NCBI RefSeq assembly: GCF_024266585.1
Contig: NZ_CP100647.1
Location: 2,027,001-2,091,000, forward strand
DNA: 64,000 nt
Direction of reading: 5' to 3'
DNA from: Xanthomonas sacchari
GTDB taxonomy: Bacteria > Pseudomonadota > Gammaproteobacteria > Xanthomonadales > Xanthomonadaceae
Of the stretch, positions 2,493 through 12,029 are shown in pieces. The notes beneath the pieces are model-generated. The model was not told the DNA's origin. It saw only the letters and a program-made list of their open reading frames with translations, and made no database searches. The position numbers and the translations under genes are program-made. Numbering within the stretch: position 1 is the stretch's first letter; each line of letters opens with the position of its first letter.

Positions 2493-2936
2493 ATGCAGGC
2501 GAGTCCGGGAATCAAGCGGTACGGCGCGGTGGGTGTGCTCGTCGCGGGAGCGACGCTGGTGCCGGCCACGGCATGCGCCGCACCGGCCTCGGCGCAGGGG
2601 CTGTGGCTGACCGCGGCCAAGGACGCGGTGGTGGCGTTCGCACCGTGCACGGATGCGGCCACCGCCTTGTGCGGGCGCATCGTCTGGGACAAGGACGCCG
2701 GTACCGCCAGCGATACCTGCGGCGTGCAGATCGCGCGCCTGGCGCGCGAGGACGGCGACACCTGGCGCGACGGCTGGGCCTTCGATCCGCGCAGCGGCAA
2801 GCGCTACAAGGCCACGCTGCGCGCCAGCGGCAGGTCGCTGGACCTGCGCGCCTTCGTCGGCGTGGAGGTGCTCGGCGAGACCGAACGCTTCACCCGCGTG
2901 CAGGCGCTGCCCAGCACGCCGGTCTGCGCCAAGTAG
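2493..2936 (+). CDS. DUF2147 family exported protein
   Basis: A 147-residue protein with an N-terminal export signal (about residues 1-35) followed by the DUF2147 pattern: GLWLTAAKDAVVAF at the start of the mature part, CGRIVWDKD, a DGW-FDPRSGKRYKA block and a C-terminal VGVEVLGETERFTR block. DUF2147 proteins are small periplasmic beta-sheet proteins of unknown function. ATG 2493 is preferred over the in-frame ATG at 2475 because a purine-rich GCGAGGGGG (2478-2485) sits at Shine-Dalgarno distance. Two cysteine pairs could form disulfides. It stands upstream of the porin gene but with a gap of about 100 bases, so co-transcription is uncertain. Confidence 0.8.
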   Translation: MQASPGIKRYGAVGVLVAGATLVPATACAAPASAQGLWLTAAKDAVVAFAPCTDAATALCGRIVWDKDAGTASDTCGVQIARLAREDGDTWRDGWAFDPRSGKRYKATLRASGRSLDLRAFVGVEVLGETERFTRVQALPSTPVCAK

Positions 2937-3033
2937 TCACCCGCCGCGCGCAATGCGCCGGCGCCATCGACGTGCGGGGCCGCCGCCGGCCGCCGCGCGT
3001 CCCACCTTCCTCAGCGAACCAGGGGAGATCGAG

Positions 3034-3945
3034 ATGACTGCAGTCCGCTTCATGGCGACCCTCGCGGGCGCACTGGCCCTGCACGGCGCGTGCTGCGCCC
3101 AGGCCCACGCCCAGCAGGCCGACACCGATGGCACGGTCGACTACCAGTTCCAGAACCAGCTCAAGCTGATGAGCGAGCAGCGCACGCGCGGCGTGTCCGA
3201 CTCGCTGATGCGCCCGTCGCTGAAGTGGACCACTCAGTTCGTGCACGCCAGCGGCTTCGTCGCGCTGCTGGAGGTGGCCAAGGTCAGCAAGAAGCAGTTC
3301 CTCGACGGCGACGGTCTGGGCATCACCGCCGCGGCCGGCTACCGCTTCGGCAACCCCGATGCCTGGCATGCCGGCATCGGCCTGGCCACCGAACGCTTCC
3401 CCGGCGCCAGCTTCCTGGCCCCGCACCGGATCGACCTGCAGACCGGCACGCCGGAGGACATCCGCCGCACCGACTACGACAGCAATTTCGGCGTGCTCGA
3501 ACTCGGCTACGGCGCGGTCGAGGGCCGCGTGCTGTACGTGTTCTCCAAGACCTACCGCGGTGCCGACACCGGCGGGGTGTGCGCGCAGATCCTGCAGTTC
3601 GCCGCCGACCCGAGCGCGGCGCTGCGCTGCTTCGCCCGCGGCGACCACGACTCGCGCGGCACCTTGCTGGGCGATCTGAACTACCAGACCCCGCTGCTGC
3701 CGTCGCTGCTGCCATCGACCACGCTGCGCCTGCACGCCGGCTACCAGAAACTGCGCAACTTCAGCGAGGGCAGCTTCGCCGACTACCAGATCGGCGTCAC
3801 CCACAAGCACTGGGGCCTGGACTGGAACCTGGACTGGGTCAGCACCCGGGTCAACGCGCACGAACTGTACTGGGTGCAGGACGGTGCGCGCATCCGCAAG
3901 ACCGACGGCGACACCCTGGTGGCCTCGGTCGGCTACACGTTCTGA
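3034..3945 (+). CDS. TorF-type putative outer-membrane porin
   Basis: A 303-residue protein with a cleavable signal peptide ending near AHAQQA (about residue 27). The mature part is a series of amphipathic beta-strands ending in VASVGYTF, a typical outer-membrane C-terminus with terminal Phe. The opening NQLKLMSEQRTRGVSDSLMRPSL resembles the start of TorF/Gcw_chp putative porins. Strong Shine-Dalgarno AGGGGAGA lies 7 bases upstream. The kinase gene begins three bases after its stop, so the porin is probably the outer-membrane entry or exit point of the following pathway. Family call is by resemblance only; substrate unknown. Confidence 0.7.
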   Translation: MTAVRFMATLAGALALHGACCAQAHAQQADTDGTVDYQFQNQLKLMSEQRTRGVSDSLMRPSLKWTTQFVHASGFVALLEVAKVSKKQFLDGDGLGITAAAGYRFGNPDAWHAGIGLATERFPGASFLAPHRIDLQTGTPEDIRRTDYDSNFGVLELGYGAVEGRVLYVFSKTYRGADTGGVCAQILQFAADPSAALRCFARGDHDSRGTLLGDLNYQTPLLPSLLPSTTLRLHAGYQKLRNFSEGSFADYQIGVTHKHWGLDWNLDWVSTRVNAHELYWVQDGARIRKTDGDTLVASVGYTF

Positions 3946-3948
3946 GCC

Positions 3949-5592
3949 ATGCGTAGCGAACTGCTCGATGCCGACCGTGGCGGCGACCAGCCGCTGGTGC
4001 TGGCGGTGGACCTGGGCACCTCCGGCTGCAAGTGCGCGCTGGTCACCCTGGACGGCCAGGTGATCGCCTGGGCGTTCGAGCCGGTGCCGCTGCACGTGCA
4101 CGGGGTCTGCGCCGAGCAGGATCCGCGCGACTGGTGGAACGCGCTACTGGTCACCGCCGCGGCGGTGCTGCAGGGCGGCGAGGCGCTGCGCCGGCGGGTG
4201 ACCGCGGTGTGCTGTTCGACCCAGGGCGAGTGCACCGTGTGCGTGGACCGCGACGGCCGCGCGCTGGGCAACGCGATGCTGTGGCTGGACATGCGCGGGC
4301 AGGCGGCGATCGCGCGGCGCCTGCGCGGACGCTGGCTCAACCTGCGCGGCTATGCGCCACTGAAGTTGCTGCGCTGGCTGCGCCTGAGCGGCGGTGCGCC
4401 GGCCGGCAGCGGCAAGGATTGCGCCGGCCACATCGCCTACCTGCGCGACCACGAACCGCAGCGCTACCAGCGCACGCACAAGTTCCTCAACGCGCTGGAC
4501 TATCTCAACCTGCGCCTGACCGGGCGCTTCTGCGCCACCGCCGATTCGGTGCTCACCACCTGGGTCACCGACAACCGCGACCCGATGCGGATCCGCTACG
4601 ACGACGGCTTGCTGCGCCTGCTCGGCATCGAACGCGACAAGCTGCCGGACCTGGTGGCCTCCACCGAGGTGCTGGGGCCGCTGCTGCCGCAGGTGGCGGC
4701 GCAGCTGGGTCTGTCGCCGCAGACCCGGGTGGTCGCCGGCGCCATCGACAACTCGGCGGTGGCGGTGGCCGCGGCGGTCGAGGACTACGCCGCGCATCTG
4801 TACCTGGGCACCTCGTCGTGGCTGGGCGCGCACGTGCCGCGGATGAAGACCGACGTGTTCAGCAACATCGCCGCGGTGCCGTGCGCGGTGAGCGGGCGCT
4901 ATCTGGCCACCGCGCTGCAGTCCACCGCCGGCGCCAACCTGTCGTTCCTACGCGACCGCATCCTGTTCCATCCCGACGAATTGCTGCGCGACGAAGAACG
5001 CCCGGACGTGTACGAGGTGCTCAACGTCATCGCCGCGCGGGTGCCGGCGGGCGCCAACGGCCTGCTGTACATGCCGTGGCTGTTCGGCGAGCGCACCCCG
5101 GTGGAGGACCACAGCCTGCGCGCCGGGCTGGTCAACCTGTCGCTGATGCACACCCGCGAGGACATCATCCGTGCCTTCATGGAAGGCGTGGCCTTGAACA
5201 CGCGCTGGATGATGGAGCCGTTCGCGCGCCTGCTCGGCCGCGATCCCGGCGTGATCGCCGCGGTCGGCGGCGGCGCGCAGTCGGACCTGTGGTGCCAGAT
5301 CATCGCCGATGTCAGCGGCCAGCCGATCCGGCAACTGCACAACCCGATCCAGGCCAATGCGATCGGCGCCACCTTCATCGCCGGTGTGGGCCTGGGCCGG
5401 CTGCGCTTCGCCGACCTGCCGGCGCTGCAACGTGCGCGCCGGGTGTACGAACCGTCTGCGGCCACGCGCGCGCTGTACGACGACCGCTATGCGACGTTCC
5501 GCGAGTTGCAGCGTACCCTGGCGCCGATCTACCGGCGCATGAATCCCCTTCCCGAGTGCGTGCCGGAGGTTTCCCAGCATGTTTGCGCATGA
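3949..5592 (+). CDS. FGGY-family carbohydrate kinase
   Basis: A 547-residue cytoplasmic sugar kinase of the xylulokinase/gluconokinase superfamily that transfers phosphate from ATP to a sugar or polyol. The phosphate-1 motif DLGTSGCK lies at residues 21-28. The catalytic aspartate is likely Asp267 in GAIDNSAVA. The adenosine region GGGAQSDLWCQIIADVSGQP starts near residue 440. Length fits the family. It overlaps the following aldolase gene by 14 bases, which argues for translational coupling. A kinase followed by a class II aldolase is the classic order for phosphorylation then retro-aldol cleavage, but the substrate cannot be named. Confidence 0.88.
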   Translation: MRSELLDADRGGDQPLVLAVDLGTSGCKCALVTLDGQVIAWAFEPVPLHVHGVCAEQDPRDWWNALLVTAAAVLQGGEALRRRVTAVCCSTQGECTVCVDRDGRALGNAMLWLDMRGQAAIARRLRGRWLNLRGYAPLKLLRWLRLSGGAPAGSGKDCAGHIAYLRDHEPQRYQRTHKFLNALDYLNLRLTGRFCATADSVLTTWVTDNRDPMRIRYDDGLLRLLGIERDKLPDLVASTEVLGPLLPQVAAQLGLSPQTRVVAGAIDNSAVAVAAAVEDYAAHLYLGTSSWLGAHVPRMKTDVFSNIAAVPCAVSGRYLATALQSTAGANLSFLRDRILFHPDELLRDEERPDVYEVLNVIAARVPAGANGLLYMPWLFGERTPVEDHSLRAGLVNLSLMHTREDIIRAFMEGVALNTRWMMEPFARLLGRDPGVIAAVGGGAQSDLWCQIIADVSGQPIRQLHNPIQANAIGATFIAGVGLGRLRFADLPALQRARRVYEPSAATRALYDDRYATFRELQRTLAPIYRRMNPLPECVPEVSQHVCA

Positions 5593-6220
5593 ACAACGCG
5601 CACGCGTGGTCGCGCTGTGTGTGGAGTTGTCGCGACGCGGCTATCTGGCCGGCACCGGCGGCAACGTCGCGCTGCGTCTGGATGCCGAGCGCTTCGCGGT
5701 GACGCCGTCGGCCACCGACTACCTGGCGATGCGTGCCGAGGACATCTGCGTGGTGCGCCTGGCCGACCTGCGGCAACTGGATGGCGCCGCCACGCCGTCG
5801 GTGGAGACCGGGCTGCATGCGCAGGTGCTGCGCCGCCGGCCCGACATGGCCTGCAGCATCCACACCCATCAGCCGGTGGCCAGCGCCTGCGCGCTGCTCG
5901 GTGCGGCGCTGCCGGTGGAGGACCCGGCGTTGCAGGTGGCGATCGGCCACAGCGTGCCGATGGTCGGCTACTTCCCGTCCGGCACCGGGCTGTTGGCCTG
6001 GCTGCTGGCGCGGCAACTGCGCCCATCGCGCAATGCCTATCTGATGCGCAACCACGGCGTGCTGTGCTGCGGCCGCAGCCTGGAGCAGGCGGTGGCGGCG
6101 GTCGATGCGCTGGAGCAGGTGGCGCGCGAACACCTGACACGCCGCATCCGCCGCCGCGCCCTGCACGACACCGGCCTGGCCGCGCCGTTGCGCGCCGTTC
6201 TGACTGCCCTGGAGGCCTGA
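5579..6220 (+). CDS. Class II aldolase/adducin family protein with intact zinc site
   Basis: A 213-residue protein of the fuculose-phosphate/ribulose-phosphate epimerase fold. The catalytic acid Glu76 (SVETGLHAQV), the zinc ligands His95 and His97 (SIHTHQ) and His159 (MRNHGVLCCG) are all visible. The GTGGNVALR phosphate-binding loop is near the N-terminus, and CSIHTHQPVASACALLG follows the family pattern. It should cleave or form a C-C bond in a phosphorylated sugar, acting on the product of the upstream kinase whose gene it overlaps. Compare the paralogue at 7722, which lost every one of these residues. Confidence 0.88.
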   Translation: MFAHEQRARVVALCVELSRRGYLAGTGGNVALRLDAERFAVTPSATDYLAMRAEDICVVRLADLRQLDGAATPSVETGLHAQVLRRRPDMACSIHTHQPVASACALLGAALPVEDPALQVAIGHSVPMVGYFPSGTGLLAWLLARQLRPSRNAYLMRNHGVLCCGRSLEQAVAAVDALEQVAREHLTRRIRRRALHDTGLAAPLRAVLTALEA

Positions 6221-6224
6221 GCGC

Positions 6225-7718
6225 ATGCACGCCCTTTCCGTTTCAGTTCCCCCGAGCCCGGCACCGACCATGAGCCAGACCCCCGCCATTTCGCAATGGC
6301 CCGATGTGGACCAGTTGTACGCACGCTTCCACGCGTTGGTGAACCAGCCGATGCGGCCGATCGGCGCCGCCGGCATGGCCAAGGTGATGCGCTACTTCGA
6401 CGAGCGCTGCCAGGGTTCCAGGCGCCTGGGCGAGGCGGCCAAGCAGGTGATCCCCGGCGGCGTGCAGCACAACCTGGCGTTCAACCATCCGTTCCCGCTG
6501 GCCATGCACAGCGCCGAGGGCGCGTACCTGACCGACGTGGACGGCAACCGCTACATCGACTTCCTGCAGGCCGGCGGCCCGACCCTGCTCGGGTCCAATC
6601 CGCCGGAGCTGCGCGAGCACGTGCAGGCGGTGCTGGACCAGTGCGGCCCGGTGACCGGCCTGCTGCACGAGTACGAGGTCAAGCTTGCCGAACTGGTCTG
6701 CGCCAGCATGCCGGCGGTGGAGATGCTGCGCCTGCTCGGCTCCGGCACCGAGGCGGTGATGGGCGCGGTGCGCCTGGCCCGCACCCACACCCGCAAGAAA
6801 TGGATCATCAAGATCGGCGGCGCTTACCACGGCTGGAGCGACCAGTTGGTGTACGGCATGCGCCTGCCGGGCACCGGGCGCATGGAGGCGATCGGCATCC
6901 CGCGCGGTGCCACCGCCTATACCCAGGAATGCCATCCCAACGATCTGGATGCGCTGCGCCGCAAGCTGCAGTTCAATCGCCTGCGCGGCGGTACCGCGGC
7001 GGTGCTGGTGGAGCCGCTGGGGCCGGAGAGCGGCACGCGGCCGGTGCACCACGACTACAACCGGCAGGTGCGCACGTTGTGCGACGAGTTCGGCGCGCTG
7101 CTGATCTTCGACGAAGTGGTCACCGGCTTCCGGCTCGGCCCGGGCGGTGCACAGGGCTACTTCGGGGTGATGCCGGACATCACCGTGCTCGGCAAATGCC
7201 TGGCCGGCGGCTATCCGATGGCCGGGGCGATCGGCGGCCGCCGCGAGGTGATGATGAGCCTGGTCGGCGGCATCGGCACCACCGCGCGGCGCGCCTTCGT
7301 CGGCGGCACGCTGTCGGCCAATCCGCTGTCCTGCGTGGCCGGCTACCACGCCTTGCTGGAGGCGCAGCGCAGCGATGCCGCCGGCAAGGCCGGCCGCGCC
7401 GGCGATCGCCTGCGCCAGGGGCTGGAGACGATCATCCGCCGTCTCGGCCTGCCGTACGTGGTCTACAACATGGGCTCGATCGTGCACCTGCAGACCTCCG
7501 GCGTGCTGCTGCTGGACACCGGCAACCTGTACAAGCTGTGGCGCGTGCGCAACGAGGCCAAGCAGCGCAAGCACATGATGGAGGAGATGGGCGCGGCGTA
7601 TTCCGCGCACGGGCTGATCACCCTGGCCGGCAGCCGCCTCTACACCAGCCGCGCCGATACCGATGCGGTGGTCGACGAGGCGCTGAACCGCTTCGACGAC
7701 GTGTTCAAGCTGGTGTAG
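6225..7718 (+). CDS. Class III aminotransferase, glutamate-1-semialdehyde mutase-like
   Basis: A 497-residue PLP enzyme of the glutamate-1-semialdehyde aminomutase branch. Visible are GSGTEAVMGAVRLAR (phosphate-binding), the aspartate of LIFDEVVTGFR and the Schiff-base lysine Lys324 in LGKCLAGGYPMAG. It is longer than true HemL (about 430 residues) and sits in a sugar-type operon, so it is unlikely to be the heme-pathway enzyme. It probably moves an amino group onto a carbonyl compound made by the aldolase. ATG 6225 is chosen because GGAGG ends 9 bases before it; an internal ATG at 6270 is an alternative. Confidence 0.85.
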   Translation: MHALSVSVPPSPAPTMSQTPAISQWPDVDQLYARFHALVNQPMRPIGAAGMAKVMRYFDERCQGSRRLGEAAKQVIPGGVQHNLAFNHPFPLAMHSAEGAYLTDVDGNRYIDFLQAGGPTLLGSNPPELREHVQAVLDQCGPVTGLLHEYEVKLAELVCASMPAVEMLRLLGSGTEAVMGAVRLARTHTRKKWIIKIGGAYHGWSDQLVYGMRLPGTGRMEAIGIPRGATAYTQECHPNDLDALRRKLQFNRLRGGTAAVLVEPLGPESGTRPVHHDYNRQVRTLCDEFGALLIFDEVVTGFRLGPGGAQGYFGVMPDITVLGKCLAGGYPMAGAIGGRREVMMSLVGGIGTTARRAFVGGTLSANPLSCVAGYHALLEAQRSDAAGKAGRAGDRLRQGLETIIRRLGLPYVVYNMGSIVHLQTSGVLLLDTGNLYKLWRVRNEAKQRKHMMEEMGAAYSAHGLITLAGSRLYTSRADTDAVVDEALNRFDDVFKLV

Positions 7719-7721
7719 CGC

Positions 7722-8360
7722 ATGCCCACCGTCTCGCAGATCGAAGCACTGTGGCGGCACACCCGCGAGCGGCTCGCGACCAAGCGCCTGCTCGGCGACG
7801 ACGCGGCAGCGCTTTCGCTGCGCTGCCCGGGCAGCACGGCGATGTGCTGCGGCGCGCTCGATGCGGAGCGGCCGCAGTGGCTGGACTGGCGCGACCCGGC
7901 GTTGCCGGCGTCGGCGCAGGTGCACGCGCAGGTGTACCTGCGGCGTCCCGATGTCGGCGCCAGCGCCTGGTCGGCGGGCGCGTTCGGCCATCGTCTGGCC
8001 GATGTCGGCGGCGTGCTGCCGCAGGTGTTCGACGAGCAGGCCCGGCACATCGGGCCGATGCCGGCGCCGCTGGCGGCTGCGGACCGGTTGACCAGCGGGC
8101 CGCCGCAGATCGGCAACGCCCTGCTGCTGGGCGGGCGCCCGCTGTGCCTGGGGAGCAGTGCGCAGCGGTTGGCGCTGAACCTGGAACTGTTCGAAAAATG
8201 CGCCAAGGCCTATGTGCTTGCCGCGGCCACCGGCGGGCAGGTGCGGGAACTGCCATGGTGGGTCCGGCGCATCGCCAACGGGCGCTTGCGCAAGGACCAG
8301 ACGCGGGCCGCCGCGGCGTTTGCCGCAGGCGAACTGCCGGCCGAAAGTACCGGGTATTGA
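7722..8360 (+). CDS. Degenerate class II aldolase paralogue without zinc ligands
   Basis: A 212-residue protein that I align by eye to the true aldolase of the same operon: VHAQVYLRRPDVGA matches LHAQVLRRRPDMAC, and IGNALLLGG-RPLCLG matches RNAYLMRNHGVLCCG. At the catalytic Glu there is Ser, the His-x-His pair is Trp83-x-Ala85, and the third zinc His is absent. The fold is probably kept but the usual lyase chemistry is not possible. It may be a regulatory or structural partner of the active aldolase, or carry a new activity. It starts 3 bases after the aminotransferase stop and precedes the transporter by 12 bases, so it is a full operon member. Confidence 0.7.
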   Translation: MPTVSQIEALWRHTRERLATKRLLGDDAAALSLRCPGSTAMCCGALDAERPQWLDWRDPALPASAQVHAQVYLRRPDVGASAWSAGAFGHRLADVGGVLPQVFDEQARHIGPMPAPLAAADRLTSGPPQIGNALLLGGRPLCLGSSAQRLALNLELFEKCAKAYVLAAATGGQVRELPWWVRRIANGRLRKDQTRAAAAFAAGELPAESTGY

Positions 8361-8372
8361 GGAAGCGCTGCG

Positions 8373-9596
8373 ATGACCGCCATGCCGTCCCCATCGTCCA
8401 TGCCGCCGGCGGCCGTGCAGGCGGCGCGTCCGCTCGCCGCGGCCTTGTCGATCGGCGCGATCGCGCTGCTGATCCTCGGCGTGCAGCCGATCGTGCTCGG
8501 CGCGCTGGTCGAGCAGCGCCTGATCACCCTGCCCGGGGTGGGCGTGGTGGCGATGGGCGAGATCATCGCCCTGGGCATCGGCGTGGCGCTGGGCGATGCG
8601 CTGCTGCCGGTGTCCTGGCAGCGACGCACCGCGATCGTGGCGGCGCTGCTGGCCGCGCTGCTGAACCTGGCCACGCTGCAGACGCAGGGCGATGCGGCCT
8701 TCGTCGCGCTGCGCGCGGCCGCCGGCCTGGCCGAGGGCCTGCTGGTGTGGGTGGCCACGGTCAGCATCGTGCGCGCGGCCGCCCCGGACCGGATCACCGC
8801 GGTGTTCATGGTGTTGCAGGCGCTGGCGCAGATCGCGCTGGCGGCGGCGCTGGCGCTGTGGGTGTTGCCGGCGGCCGGCTGGAAGGGCGGCTTCGCCGCC
8901 ATGGCCGCGACCTGCCTGCTGGTGTTGCCGCTGGCGGCGGCCCTGCCGGCGCCGGCAAGCCTGGCCGCGGCGGCCGGTGTCCCGTGCGCGGCGAGCGCCA
9001 CCGCCCGGCTGCGCTGGTCGCCGGCGACGCTGGCGCCGCTGCTGGTGGCGTTCCTGCAGATGGCGGCGATCGGCGCGCTGTGGGCCTACCTGGAGCCGCT
9101 GGCGCTGCGCGCCGGGCTGGATGCGCATGCGGCGCAGCTGCAGACCTCGTGGGTGTTGGGCATGCAGATCGTCGGCGGGCTGGCGGCGATCTACTGGGTG
9201 CGCCGGTTGTCGGTGACGGCGACGCTGACCCTGGGCAGCGTCGCGTTGTGCCTGGTGGCTGCGGCGATGTACCGGGTTCCCGGGCATCCGGCACCGGGTT
9301 TCGCGGCGGTGTGCGTGGCGTTCGGCTTCGCCTGGATGTTCCTGATGCCGTTCCATGTCGGCCTGGCGCTGCGCGCCGATGCGCAGGGGCGGGTGGCGGT
9401 GCTGGTGCCGGCCGCGCAGTTGATCGGATCGGCGTGCGGACCGTTGCTGGCGTCGCTGCTGCTGCACGCAGACGATCCGGCGCCGGTGCCGCTGGTCGGG
9501 CTGGGCTTCGCGCTGGCCGCGGCCTTGCTGGCGCTGTGGATCGGCCGGCGGCAGCGCCACCCGGCCGTCGTGCAGGCGGGCTCGCATGCCGGGTAA
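8373..9596 (+). CDS. MFS transporter
   Basis: A 407-residue integral inner-membrane protein with about 12 hydrophobic segments (for example residues 22-45, 56-76, 84-101 and 140-165) and short polar loops, as in sugar-efflux and drug/H+ antiporter members of the major facilitator superfamily. No substrate signature is visible. It follows the aldolase-like gene by 12 bases. In this operon it should either bring in the kinase substrate or export the amino product. Confidence 0.8.
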   Translation: MTAMPSPSSMPPAAVQAARPLAAALSIGAIALLILGVQPIVLGALVEQRLITLPGVGVVAMGEIIALGIGVALGDALLPVSWQRRTAIVAALLAALLNLATLQTQGDAAFVALRAAAGLAEGLLVWVATVSIVRAAAPDRITAVFMVLQALAQIALAAALALWVLPAAGWKGGFAAMAATCLLVLPLAAALPAPASLAAAAGVPCAASATARLRWSPATLAPLLVAFLQMAAIGALWAYLEPLALRAGLDAHAAQLQTSWVLGMQIVGGLAAIYWVRRLSVTATLTLGSVALCLVAAAMYRVPGHPAPGFAAVCVAFGFAWMFLMPFHVGLALRADAQGRVAVLVPAAQLIGSACGPLLASLLLHADDPAPVPLVGLGFALAAALLALWIGRRQRHPAVVQAGSHAG

Positions 9597-9718: not shown

Positions 9719-11161
9719 ATGTCGCCTGAGCCCGTGCAGGACACTGCGCCGGAGACGATCGCGGCGCTGTTCGCCGCGCAGCAGGCCACCGCGCTGGCCT
9801 GGCGCGGCTCCTCGGCAAACGCGCGGCGCGCACATCTGCGTGCGTTGCGCGATGCGTTGCTGGCGCGGCGGCAGGCGTTGATCGCCGCCTTCGCCGCCGA
9901 TTTCGCCAAGCCCGCACTGGAAGTGGAACTGACCGAGCTGCTGCCGGTGGTCGACGAGATCGCCACCGCCATCGCGCAGCTGCCGCGCTGGATGCGGCCG
10001 CGCAAGGTCGCGCCGACCCTGCTGGCCCTGGGCACGCGCGCGCGCATCGCGTTCCAACCCAAGGGCCGCTGCCTGATCATCGGGCCCTGGAACTATCCGG
10101 TGGCCACCGTGCTGGGGCCGCTGGTGTCGGCGCTGGCCGCCGGCAACACCGCGCTGATCAAGCCGTCCGAATTCACGCCGCAGGTCAACGCGGTGCTGCA
10201 TGCGGTGCTGGAGGAAGCGTTCGCGCCGGAGGAGGTGGCGCTGGTGCAGGGCGGCGCGGCGACCGCGCAGGCCTTGCTGGCGTGTCCGTTCGACCATGTG
10301 TTCTTCACCGGCTCGGCGTCGGTGGGCCGGCAGGTGATGGCCGCGGCGGCGCGGCAGTTGACCCCGGTGACGCTGGAGCTGGGCGGCAAGTCGCCGGTCA
10401 TCGTCGACCGCAGCGCCGACCTGCGCCGCGCCGCCGAGGTGATCGTCTGGGCCAAGCTGGTCAATGCCGGACAGACCTGCATCGCCCCGGATACCTTGTT
10501 CGTGCATCGCGATGTCAGCGCGCGTCTGCTCGACCACTGCCGCGCCCTGTTGGCGCAGCGCTACGGTGCCGATGCGCAGGCGGTCGCCGCCAGCCCGCAC
10601 CTGGCGCGCATGATTCATCCGGCGCATGCCGCGCGCGTGGCCGTCCTGATCGACGAGGCGCGCGCCGGCGGCGCGCAGCTGCTGGCCGGTGGCGAGCACG
10701 ACGCGGCGCGGCGCTACGTGGCGCCGACGCTGCTGGGCCAGGTGCCGGCGCAGGCGCGGATCGCGCAGGAAGAGATCTTCGGCCCGGTGCTGCCGGTGGT
10801 CGAGTTCGCGCGCCTGGACGAGGTGCTGGATCGGCTCGATGCCGCGCCCAAGCCGCTGGCGCTGTACCTGTGGAGCCGCGACCGCGCCGGCGTGGCGCGG
10901 GTGCTGGCGCGCACCAGTTCCGGCAGCGCGGTGGTCAACCATTGCCTGCAGCAGTTCGTGCACAGCGGTTTGCCGTTCGGCGGCGTTGGCGCTTCGGGGT
11001 TCGGCAGCGCGCACGGCGTGCACGGCTTCCGCGCCTTCTCGCACGAGCGCGCGTTGCTGCAGGGCGGGCGCCTGCCGATCGTCAAGGCGTTCTTTCCTCC
11101 GTACACCAGGTTGCAACAACGATTGGCGGCCGGCCTCAGCGCGTGGCTGGCACGACGCTGA
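9719..11161 (+). CDS. Aldehyde dehydrogenase family protein (coniferyl-aldehyde type)
   Basis: A 480-residue NAD(P)-dependent aldehyde dehydrogenase. Motifs: GPWNYP near residue 121, FTGSASVGR, the general base Glu220 in LELGGKSP, and the nucleophile Cys254 in NAGQTCIAPD. The C-terminal hydrophobic PIVKAFFPPYTRLQ is typical of the coniferyl/fatty-aldehyde subgroup. Shine-Dalgarno AGGAGAAG lies 7 bases before ATG. A gap of 122 bases separates it from the transporter gene, so it may have its own promoter, yet it is on the same strand and flanked by a likely local regulator. It could oxidise an aldehyde released by the aldolase or transaminase step. Confidence 0.88.
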   Translation: MSPEPVQDTAPETIAALFAAQQATALAWRGSSANARRAHLRALRDALLARRQALIAAFAADFAKPALEVELTELLPVVDEIATAIAQLPRWMRPRKVAPTLLALGTRARIAFQPKGRCLIIGPWNYPVATVLGPLVSALAAGNTALIKPSEFTPQVNAVLHAVLEEAFAPEEVALVQGGAATAQALLACPFDHVFFTGSASVGRQVMAAAARQLTPVTLELGGKSPVIVDRSADLRRAAEVIVWAKLVNAGQTCIAPDTLFVHRDVSARLLDHCRALLAQRYGADAQAVAASPHLARMIHPAHAARVAVLIDEARAGGAQLLAGGEHDAARRYVAPTLLGQVPAQARIAQEEIFGPVLPVVEFARLDEVLDRLDAAPKPLALYLWSRDRAGVARVLARTSSGSAVVNHCLQQFVHSGLPFGGVGASGFGSAHGVHGFRAFSHERALLQGGRLPIVKAFFPPYTRLQQRLAAGLSAWLARR

Positions 11162-11324
11162 GCGACGCTACGGTGTGTCAGGTGCGGGCGCGGTAAGATG
11201 CGATGTCGGCGCGTGCAACGACGTTGCGGCGTAGTCCGCGCACCATTGCCGCGGCGATGCGTGCCGTGAGGCTGGCGTAGTGCCGCCACCGCGGCGCCTG
11301 CCGCTTCACCACCATCGAGATCCC

Positions 11325-12029
11325 ATGCCCGCCGACACGCCGCGTCCCTCCGCACCGCACCGCCCGCGCCTGACCGGGAACAAGGTGCCGGCCCAGCATC
11401 GCGCCACCGAGACCTACGAACAGATCCTCTCGGTCACCGCGCAACTGCTCGGGGACGTCGGTGTGGAGCGGCTGTCCACCAACCTGGTGTGCGCGCGTGC
11501 CGGGCTGACGCCACCGGCGTTGTACCGCTACTTCCCCAACAAGTACGCGCTGCTGTCGGAACTGGGCCGGCGGCTGATGGAGCGGCAGAACCAGCTCATC
11601 CCCAAGTGGATCACCCTGTCGGCGATGAGCGGCACGCGCGAGGAACTGCAGCGTGCGCTGGCCGGGCTGGTGCTGGATACCTACCGCGTCACCAAGGCAA
11701 CCGAGGGCGGGGTGTGGGTGCTGCGCGCGCTACGTGCGGTGCCGGCGCTGCAGCAGGTGCGGCTGGAGTCGCACGCGCAGGTCACCAAGGGCCAGGTGCG
11801 CTTCCTCAGCGAGGCCTTCCCCGACGCCGATCCGCGCCAGCTGCGGCTGGTCAGCCGCATCGTGGTCGACCTGATCTATGCGACCGTGGAGTTGCTGTTC
11901 GACACCCGCCTGAGCGCCCGCGCGGTGGCCGATACGGTGGCGGCGATGATCGCCAGCCATATCGAGCAGCTGCGCGACGGAGCGGCGGCGGATGACAGCG
12001 CGAAGCAGGCGTCGACAGACGCCGCCTGA
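11325..12029 (+). CDS. TetR/AcrR family transcriptional regulator
   Basis: A 234-residue protein with an N-terminal TetR DNA-binding domain: TYEQILSVTAQLLGDVGVERLSTNLVCARAGLTPPALYRYFPNK carried at about residues 29-72, ending in the diagnostic LYRYFPNK. The C-terminal ligand-binding half is unlike any family I can name. It is the last gene on the strand after the kinase-aldolase-transaminase-dehydrogenase genes and most simply regulates them, as an inference. ATG 11325 is chosen over 11280 because the extra residues are low-complexity. Confidence 0.8.
   Translation: MPADTPRPSAPHRPRLTGNKVPAQHRATETYEQILSVTAQLLGDVGVERLSTNLVCARAGLTPPALYRYFPNKYALLSELGRRLMERQNQLIPKWITLSAMSGTREELQRALAGLVLDTYRVTKATEGGVWVLRALRAVPALQQVRLESHAQVTKGQVRFLSEAFPDADPRQLRLVSRIVVDLIYATVELLFDTRLSARAVADTVAAMIASHIEQLRDGAAADDSAKQASTDAA

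Follow-up and report, generated by a model that had tools for sequence, protein, structure and literature searches.

A zinc-less relative of class II aldolases in a conserved four-gene operon of Xanthomonas and other bacteria: a candidate aldolase partner in probable sphingoid-base degradation

L-fuculose-1-phosphate aldolase (FucA) is a homotetrameric class II aldolase. Enzymes of this class bind phosphate through the loops GN, TPTG and SS. In FucA, the residues Tyr113, Phe131 and Tyr209 presumably extend to the neighbouring subunit's active site; mutants at these positions exist, as entry titles indicate. A non-catalytic aldolase domain is known from adducin, and in this fold the C-terminal helix contacts the adjacent protomer, according to the sections of PMC12599920 consulted. 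Adducin is a eukaryotic protein that binds actin and other proteins, whereas the protein described here is bacterial, consists of a single domain and is tied to an active aldolase. In an unrelated enzyme and pathway, the deoxyhypusine synthase of trypanosomatids, a dead paralog forms a heterotetramer with a 3000-fold increase in activity (abstract-level account in PMC3663545); there the complex is proven.

Two further systems are relevant to the surrounding genes. In Pseudomonas aeruginosa, the genes sphBCD are induced by sphingosine via SphR, along with a ceramidase and a porin, and the proposed products are glycine and a long-chain aldehyde (PMC3900636, in part). An FGGY kinase, a class II aldolase, an aminotransferase and a zinc-less aldolase relative are all absent from the regulon table in the available part of that paper. 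Sphingosine metabolism requires the genes sphBC, as does normal growth with phytosphingosine, and the authors state in the part consulted that the product could not be identified (PMC11893366). The N-terminal aminotransferase domain of RtxA makes serinol phosphate from DHAP (PMC3222319, in part). By description alone, it resembles the proposed activity of the aminotransferase in our operon, in that a 2-amino-1,3-diol and the corresponding ketone are interconverted; it differs in that its reaction is an amination and its substrate has three carbons (C3), according to the same excerpt.

The four-gene block and its distribution

We analysed a stretch of 64,000 nucleotides from Xanthomonas sacchari (below, the window). 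The gene at 7722..8360 on the forward strand starts with ATG and encodes a protein of 212 residues, here named PSE, with the fold of class II aldolases and without their zinc ligands, catalytic Glu and phosphate loops. It is separated by 3 bases from the preceding aminotransferase gene and by 12 from the following MFS gene, the third-position GC content of the frame is 0.88, and a scan of genome contigs found relatives at 49 loci. Thus the frame is open and tightly coupled to its neighbours, as had been claimed in the first-pass annotation. A chance open reading frame is ruled out by the relatives, the dN/dS values and 22 invariant residues. Pfam gives no match for PSE with an E value of 1 or less, and the gathering cut-off of Aldolase_II (PF00596) is not reached; its sole NCBIfam match is PRK06208 (E 0.041). 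In the single annotated copy examined, on a Burkholderia ambifaria plasmid, PSE is called a hypothetical protein, and the four genes of the block carry family names only. PSE is a real and old family of pseudo-aldolases tied to one operon.

All the genes described here are on the forward strand. The FGGY-family carbohydrate kinase gene (3949..5592) overlaps by 14 bases with the gene of an intact class II aldolase of 213 residues, ALDO (5579..6220), which has E76, H95, H97 and H159, scores 143.7 bits with Pfam Aldolase_II and matches profiles of the FucA type; its structure model has a pLDDT of 93.6. Next is a class III aminotransferase gene, AT3 (6225..7718), nearest to glutamate-1-semialdehyde aminomutase; its true start may be the inner ATG at 6270. 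PSE is followed by genes for an MFS transporter (8373..9596; MFS_1, 35.2 bits), an aldehyde dehydrogenase (9719..11161), which is close to the block in many relatives though not in all, and a TetR-type regulator (11280..12029), which in many relatives is divergent and upstream of the block. The kinase gene is preceded by genes (2535-3945) for a small DUF2147 protein (matched stretch 2535..2933; tblastn 47% identity, E 9e-38; PF09917 in a relative) and a Gcw_chp (TorF-type) outer-membrane protein (3034..3945, with the start placed at ATG 3034; PF09694), one relative of which is annotated as a TorF family putative porin. Relatives of these two genes occur in 33 and 35 of 50 clustered sources.

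By record titles, the 49 PSE loci belong to Xanthomonas, Pseudomonas, many Burkholderiales, Marinobacterium, Amphritea and one Rhizobiales contig. The gene order kinase-ALDO-AT3-PSE was observed at 48 of them, the remaining one ending at a contig edge. In the reverse search, started from AT3, PSE directly follows AT3 in all 43 loci, with the kinase and ALDO genes upstream in each. Four of these loci (the window's genome and three centre genomes) were already known to hold PSE, and some of the others may be from the same species as loci found with PSE. The cut-off was 1e-120 and, except in the search of the window's genus, at most 4 to 8 candidates per genome were scored, so that weaker AT3 relatives lacking PSE could have been missed. 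This family-wide search for operons with both an intact and a ligand-less aldolase, proposed in the first-pass annotation, thus found the pair throughout: ALDO and PSE co-occur obligately in the AT3 loci. The four-gene block as a whole, which the annotation had missed, is likewise obligate.

The distribution of the operon is patchy even within one genus: half of the genomes sampled from the genus of the window (10 of 20) have it. It was found in 13 of 349 genomes from the family of Acidovorax radicis, 15 of 249 from the genus of Pseudomonas congelans and 5 of 180 from the family of the Rhizobiales genome. A class-wide sample of 369 genomes, rather sparse for this purpose, yielded the window's own genome as the only positive, again indicating a patchy distribution. 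On the conjugative plasmid of B. ambifaria (NZ_CP152372.1, locus L114, 6206-16131), the whole block lies between two IS5 transposase genes and hence may move. At another locus (L104, 7737-10188), a divergent copy of the operon is followed by two genes on the opposite strand, whose products by eye are cytochrome-like and beta-helical.

Fold, lost ligands and conserved residues of PSE

BLASTP aligns only 34 residues of PSE and ALDO (13 identical, E 7e-4), and profile-profile comparison aligns 167 columns (97.1%, E 5.6e-11). In the latter alignment, E76 of ALDO corresponds to S64 of PSE, H95 to W83, H97 to A85, and H159 to a gap beside G138. The substitutions reported in the first-pass annotation, catalytic Glu by Ser and His-x-His by Trp-x-Ala with the third His absent, are therefore seen again. 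An unrelated family is excluded by the profile search and a VIA-align run, the structure comparison giving an aldolase fold.

The losses are general. For the residue counts, PSE and ALDO were deduplicated separately, giving 74 distinct sequences of each from 87 loci (86 with both proteins); five loci of the Rhizobiales group (L115-L119) are left out and L050 is included. No His is found at the first zinc-ligand position among the 73 residues listed of 74 PSE, and none of the 74 has His at the second position or contains NHG. His is seen in 1/74 and 4/74 sequences at the pair of positions around the third ligand. The column of the catalytic Glu (E73 of FucA), which adjoins a gapped stretch, has Glu in 8/74. 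The ALDO proteins retain HTHQ (86/86), NHG (84/86) and P[ST]VE (83/86); E76, H95, H97, H159 and GGN are present in all 74 distinct sequences, and TPSA at a frequency of at least 0.99. The phosphate-binding loops, represented by GGN and TPSA in ALDO, are also absent from PSE, a loss on which the first-pass annotation was silent. Thus PSE has the common fold of the class II aldolase/adducin superfamily and differs from FucA and other enzymes of the class in having neither the three His ligands, nor the catalytic Glu, nor the phosphate-binding loops.

The invariant residues of PSE are elsewhere. The 22 positions are constant in all 74 distinct sequences, whose identity to the PSE of the window goes down to 35%, and include F103-D104-E105-Q106, R108, G111, P178-W179, R188 and the C-terminal Y212, as well as H68, R75, K159 and C160; H109 is nearly invariant. 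Segment 100-111 has mean conservation 0.87 (rank 11 of 200 12-mers), compared with 0.48 for the aligned segment 112-123 of ALDO (rank 179 of 201). Through ALDO, the PSE helix 104-109 aligns with the H112-Y113 stretch of FucA, D104 falling on Y113. The last 20 residues have mean conservation 0.61 in PSE and 0.42 in ALDO; a C-terminal Tyr is present in 74/74 PSE, whereas 4/74 ALDO have any Tyr within the last 25 residues. The pattern suggests a split site, in which ALDO would supply the metal, the base and the phosphate grip, and PSE the part reaching over. On the other hand, Y131-P133-S134-G135 is invariant in ALDO, in the region of F131 of FucA, a loop facing the neighbouring subunit. The homomeric site of ALDO may thus be complete, its trans side being not wholly lost. 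H68 and E158 of PSE align with H80 and E179 of ALDO, which are invariant too, and hence are likely structural.

The PSE profile matches the operon aldolases, where it matches them, with about 12 to 20 bits, NovR with 30, FucA of S. pneumoniae with 26 and FucA of E. coli with 12; the ALDO profile matches four Rhizobiales PSE with 17 to 24 bits. In a tree of 13 PSE, 12 ALDO and 3 FucA sequences, all PSE group in a clade of their own, distinct from ALDO and FucA (support 100/100); the grouping of ALDO is weak (79/82). As PSE is a single clade, one early loss of the ligands is probable. PSE may descend from an ALDO of this operon, as the first-pass annotation implied, or from another aldolase; a recent duplication of ALDO within the operon is not borne out, PSE being an old separate clade.

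For ten Xanthomonas genomes (45 pairs each for PSE, ALDO and the kinase, 44 for AT3), the pooled dN/dS of PSE is 0.33 (0.13 to 0.67 in single pairs), that of ALDO 0.25, that of the kinase 0.16 and that of AT3 0.12. PSE is under constraint, yet evolves faster than the other genes of the block. The earlier statement that the gene is not decaying agrees with these values and with the invariant residues, which together with the 49 loci rule out a decaying copy.

Flanking genes and the candidate substrate

Among the genes flanking the block in relatives are those for a cytochrome c, an ALO-family FAD oxidase and a PLP enzyme with the alanine racemase fold. In the available flanks of 59 loci, short in some of them, sphC- and sphD-like genes were found together in 15 and a sphBCD-like trio in 11. 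By order and by the kinds of proteins (cytochrome c, FAD oxidase, PLP aldolase-like enzyme), the trio corresponds to sphBCD of P. aeruginosa, which makes the genes putative orthologues. A TAT signal was detected by Pfam in one of three oxidases tested.

The likeness to the P. aeruginosa sphA/sphBCD/cerN system extends to the ceramidase, which adjoins the operon in two genomes. Ceramidase genes occur in 4 of 249 Pseudomonas genomes, two of which also hold the operon, with the ceramidase about 7 kb from AT3 (C33:567107-568528 and C33:575142; C3:661436-662857 and C3:669670; Fisher p 0.019, uncorrected for relatedness). In the first of these (C33), Pfam-confirmed DUF1302, DUF1329 and AraC-type genes are between or beside the ceramidase and the operon; candidate counterparts in the second (C3) agree with them by size and place. 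DUF1302 and DUF1329 proteins are typical of hydrophobic substrates. At locus L106 (1-4011, in Pseudomonas genome G942), the operon adjoins a cluster on one strand of genes for ceramidase, DUF1329 and DUF1302 proteins, which hints that the DUF1302/DUF1329 pair may take part in sphingolipid uptake. Locus L109 (Pseudomonas genome G1047) has genes similar to those of L106 by size and place alone.

The association is not general. In the family of A. radicis, ceramidase was found in 5 of 349 genomes, namely 1 of 13 operon genomes, where it is on another contig, and 4 of 336 others (Fisher p 0.17), so that the link is unsupported there. None of 20 Xanthomonas genomes matched the ceramidase model, nor did the control genomes; the same model does match in Pseudomonas. 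No gene of the sphC (ALO) family was found in the window's own genome, and no sphBCD-like genes in the flanks of any Xanthomonas locus. In Xanthomonas, a sphingoid base would thus have to come ready-made or be released by other enzymes.

Taken with the flanking genes, the operon probably encodes a pathway of sphingoid-base degradation; this link, missed in the first-pass annotation, suggests the substrate. One possible scheme starts from phytosphingosine. AT3 would convert the 2-amino-1,3,4-triol head to a 1,3,4-trihydroxy-2-ketone, the FGGY kinase would form its 1-phosphate, ALDO would cleave the C3-C4 bond to yield DHAP and a C15 fatty aldehyde, and the aldehyde dehydrogenase would oxidise the latter. 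Transaminated phytosphingosine would be a ketose-like 2-ketone, on which the kinase and the FucA-like aldolase could act as they do on sugars. The DUF2147 and Gcw_chp/TorF-type proteins may be involved in substrate uptake. The sugar-type families of the kinase and aldolase would also fit a different amino-polyol, for instance an amino sugar or a serinol derivative, as does the lack of sphC-family and ceramidase matches in the window's genome. This alternative is possible but rather doubtful, given the sphBCD-like genes in relatives, the ceramidase beside the operon in two Pseudomonas and the DUF1302 and DUF1329 proteins in one of these.

Possible roles of the zinc-less protein

The first-pass annotation had left open a partner, a regulatory subunit or a new activity. 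Linkage and the conservation pattern make a partner of some kind the best reading, the other two being retained as rivals. That the partner is ALDO seems somewhat favoured; the complex is putative, the structure models being of single chains. The zinc, the catalytic Glu and the site for phosphate would be those of ALDO, and PSE would be adjacent to it in a mixed ring, lending in trans the helix F103-D104-E105-Q106-R108, placed like the trans Tyr113 of FucA, together with its C-terminal helix and the tail ending in Tyr, and perhaps room for a long alkyl chain. The full proposal, PSE as an obligate non-catalytic subunit of ALDO in the degradation of sphingoid bases, most likely phytosphingosine, is tentative, with slightly less than an even chance of being correct.

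PSE could instead be a subunit or escort of AT3, for example passing the lipid substrate to it. Indeed, the gene adjoins AT3 and not ALDO, invariably so in the AT3 loci and with a gap of 3 bases in the window, and AT3 shows the highest conservation in the block by identity and the lowest dN/dS. However, the four genes are inseparable to the same degree, and adjacency by itself does not decide between AT3 and ALDO. An aldolase fold pairs most readily with an aldolase, and the top PSE-specific residues are on the segments that FucA turns to the neighbouring aldolase subunit; we consider the AT3 partnership unlikely. If PSE were itself an enzyme for a further step of the pathway, with an active site that has been relocated and needs no metal, this would account for so many invariant residues, several of them charged, in such divergent sequences, but with H68 and E158 likely structural and no cofactor or metal site evident this reading is quite improbable. 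Least probable is a ligand-sensing or scaffolding regulator outside any active site. It agrees with a fold kept while all catalytic parts are gone, and adducin, in the portion of PMC12599920 consulted, is a precedent for an aldolase domain used for binding only; still, a TetR or AraC-type regulatory gene is already present at many loci, and PSE has no added domain.

Returning to PSE as the partner of ALDO, the combination of an undescribed phytosphingosine route with a hetero-oligomeric class II aldolase, whose active site would be split between zinc-bearing and zinc-less subunits, is at present a doubtful but possible outcome. Among the matches listed from the open-licence literature, no paper describes this pathway or a dead class II aldolase subunit, which is weak evidence. 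We know of no other obligate dead partner of a class II aldolase in bacteria. If the reading is correct, PSE and ALDO would be such a case, providing a testable example of the transition from a symmetric to a split enzyme. The operon would then allow bacteria, plant-associated ones among them, to process sphingoid bases in the manner of sugars.
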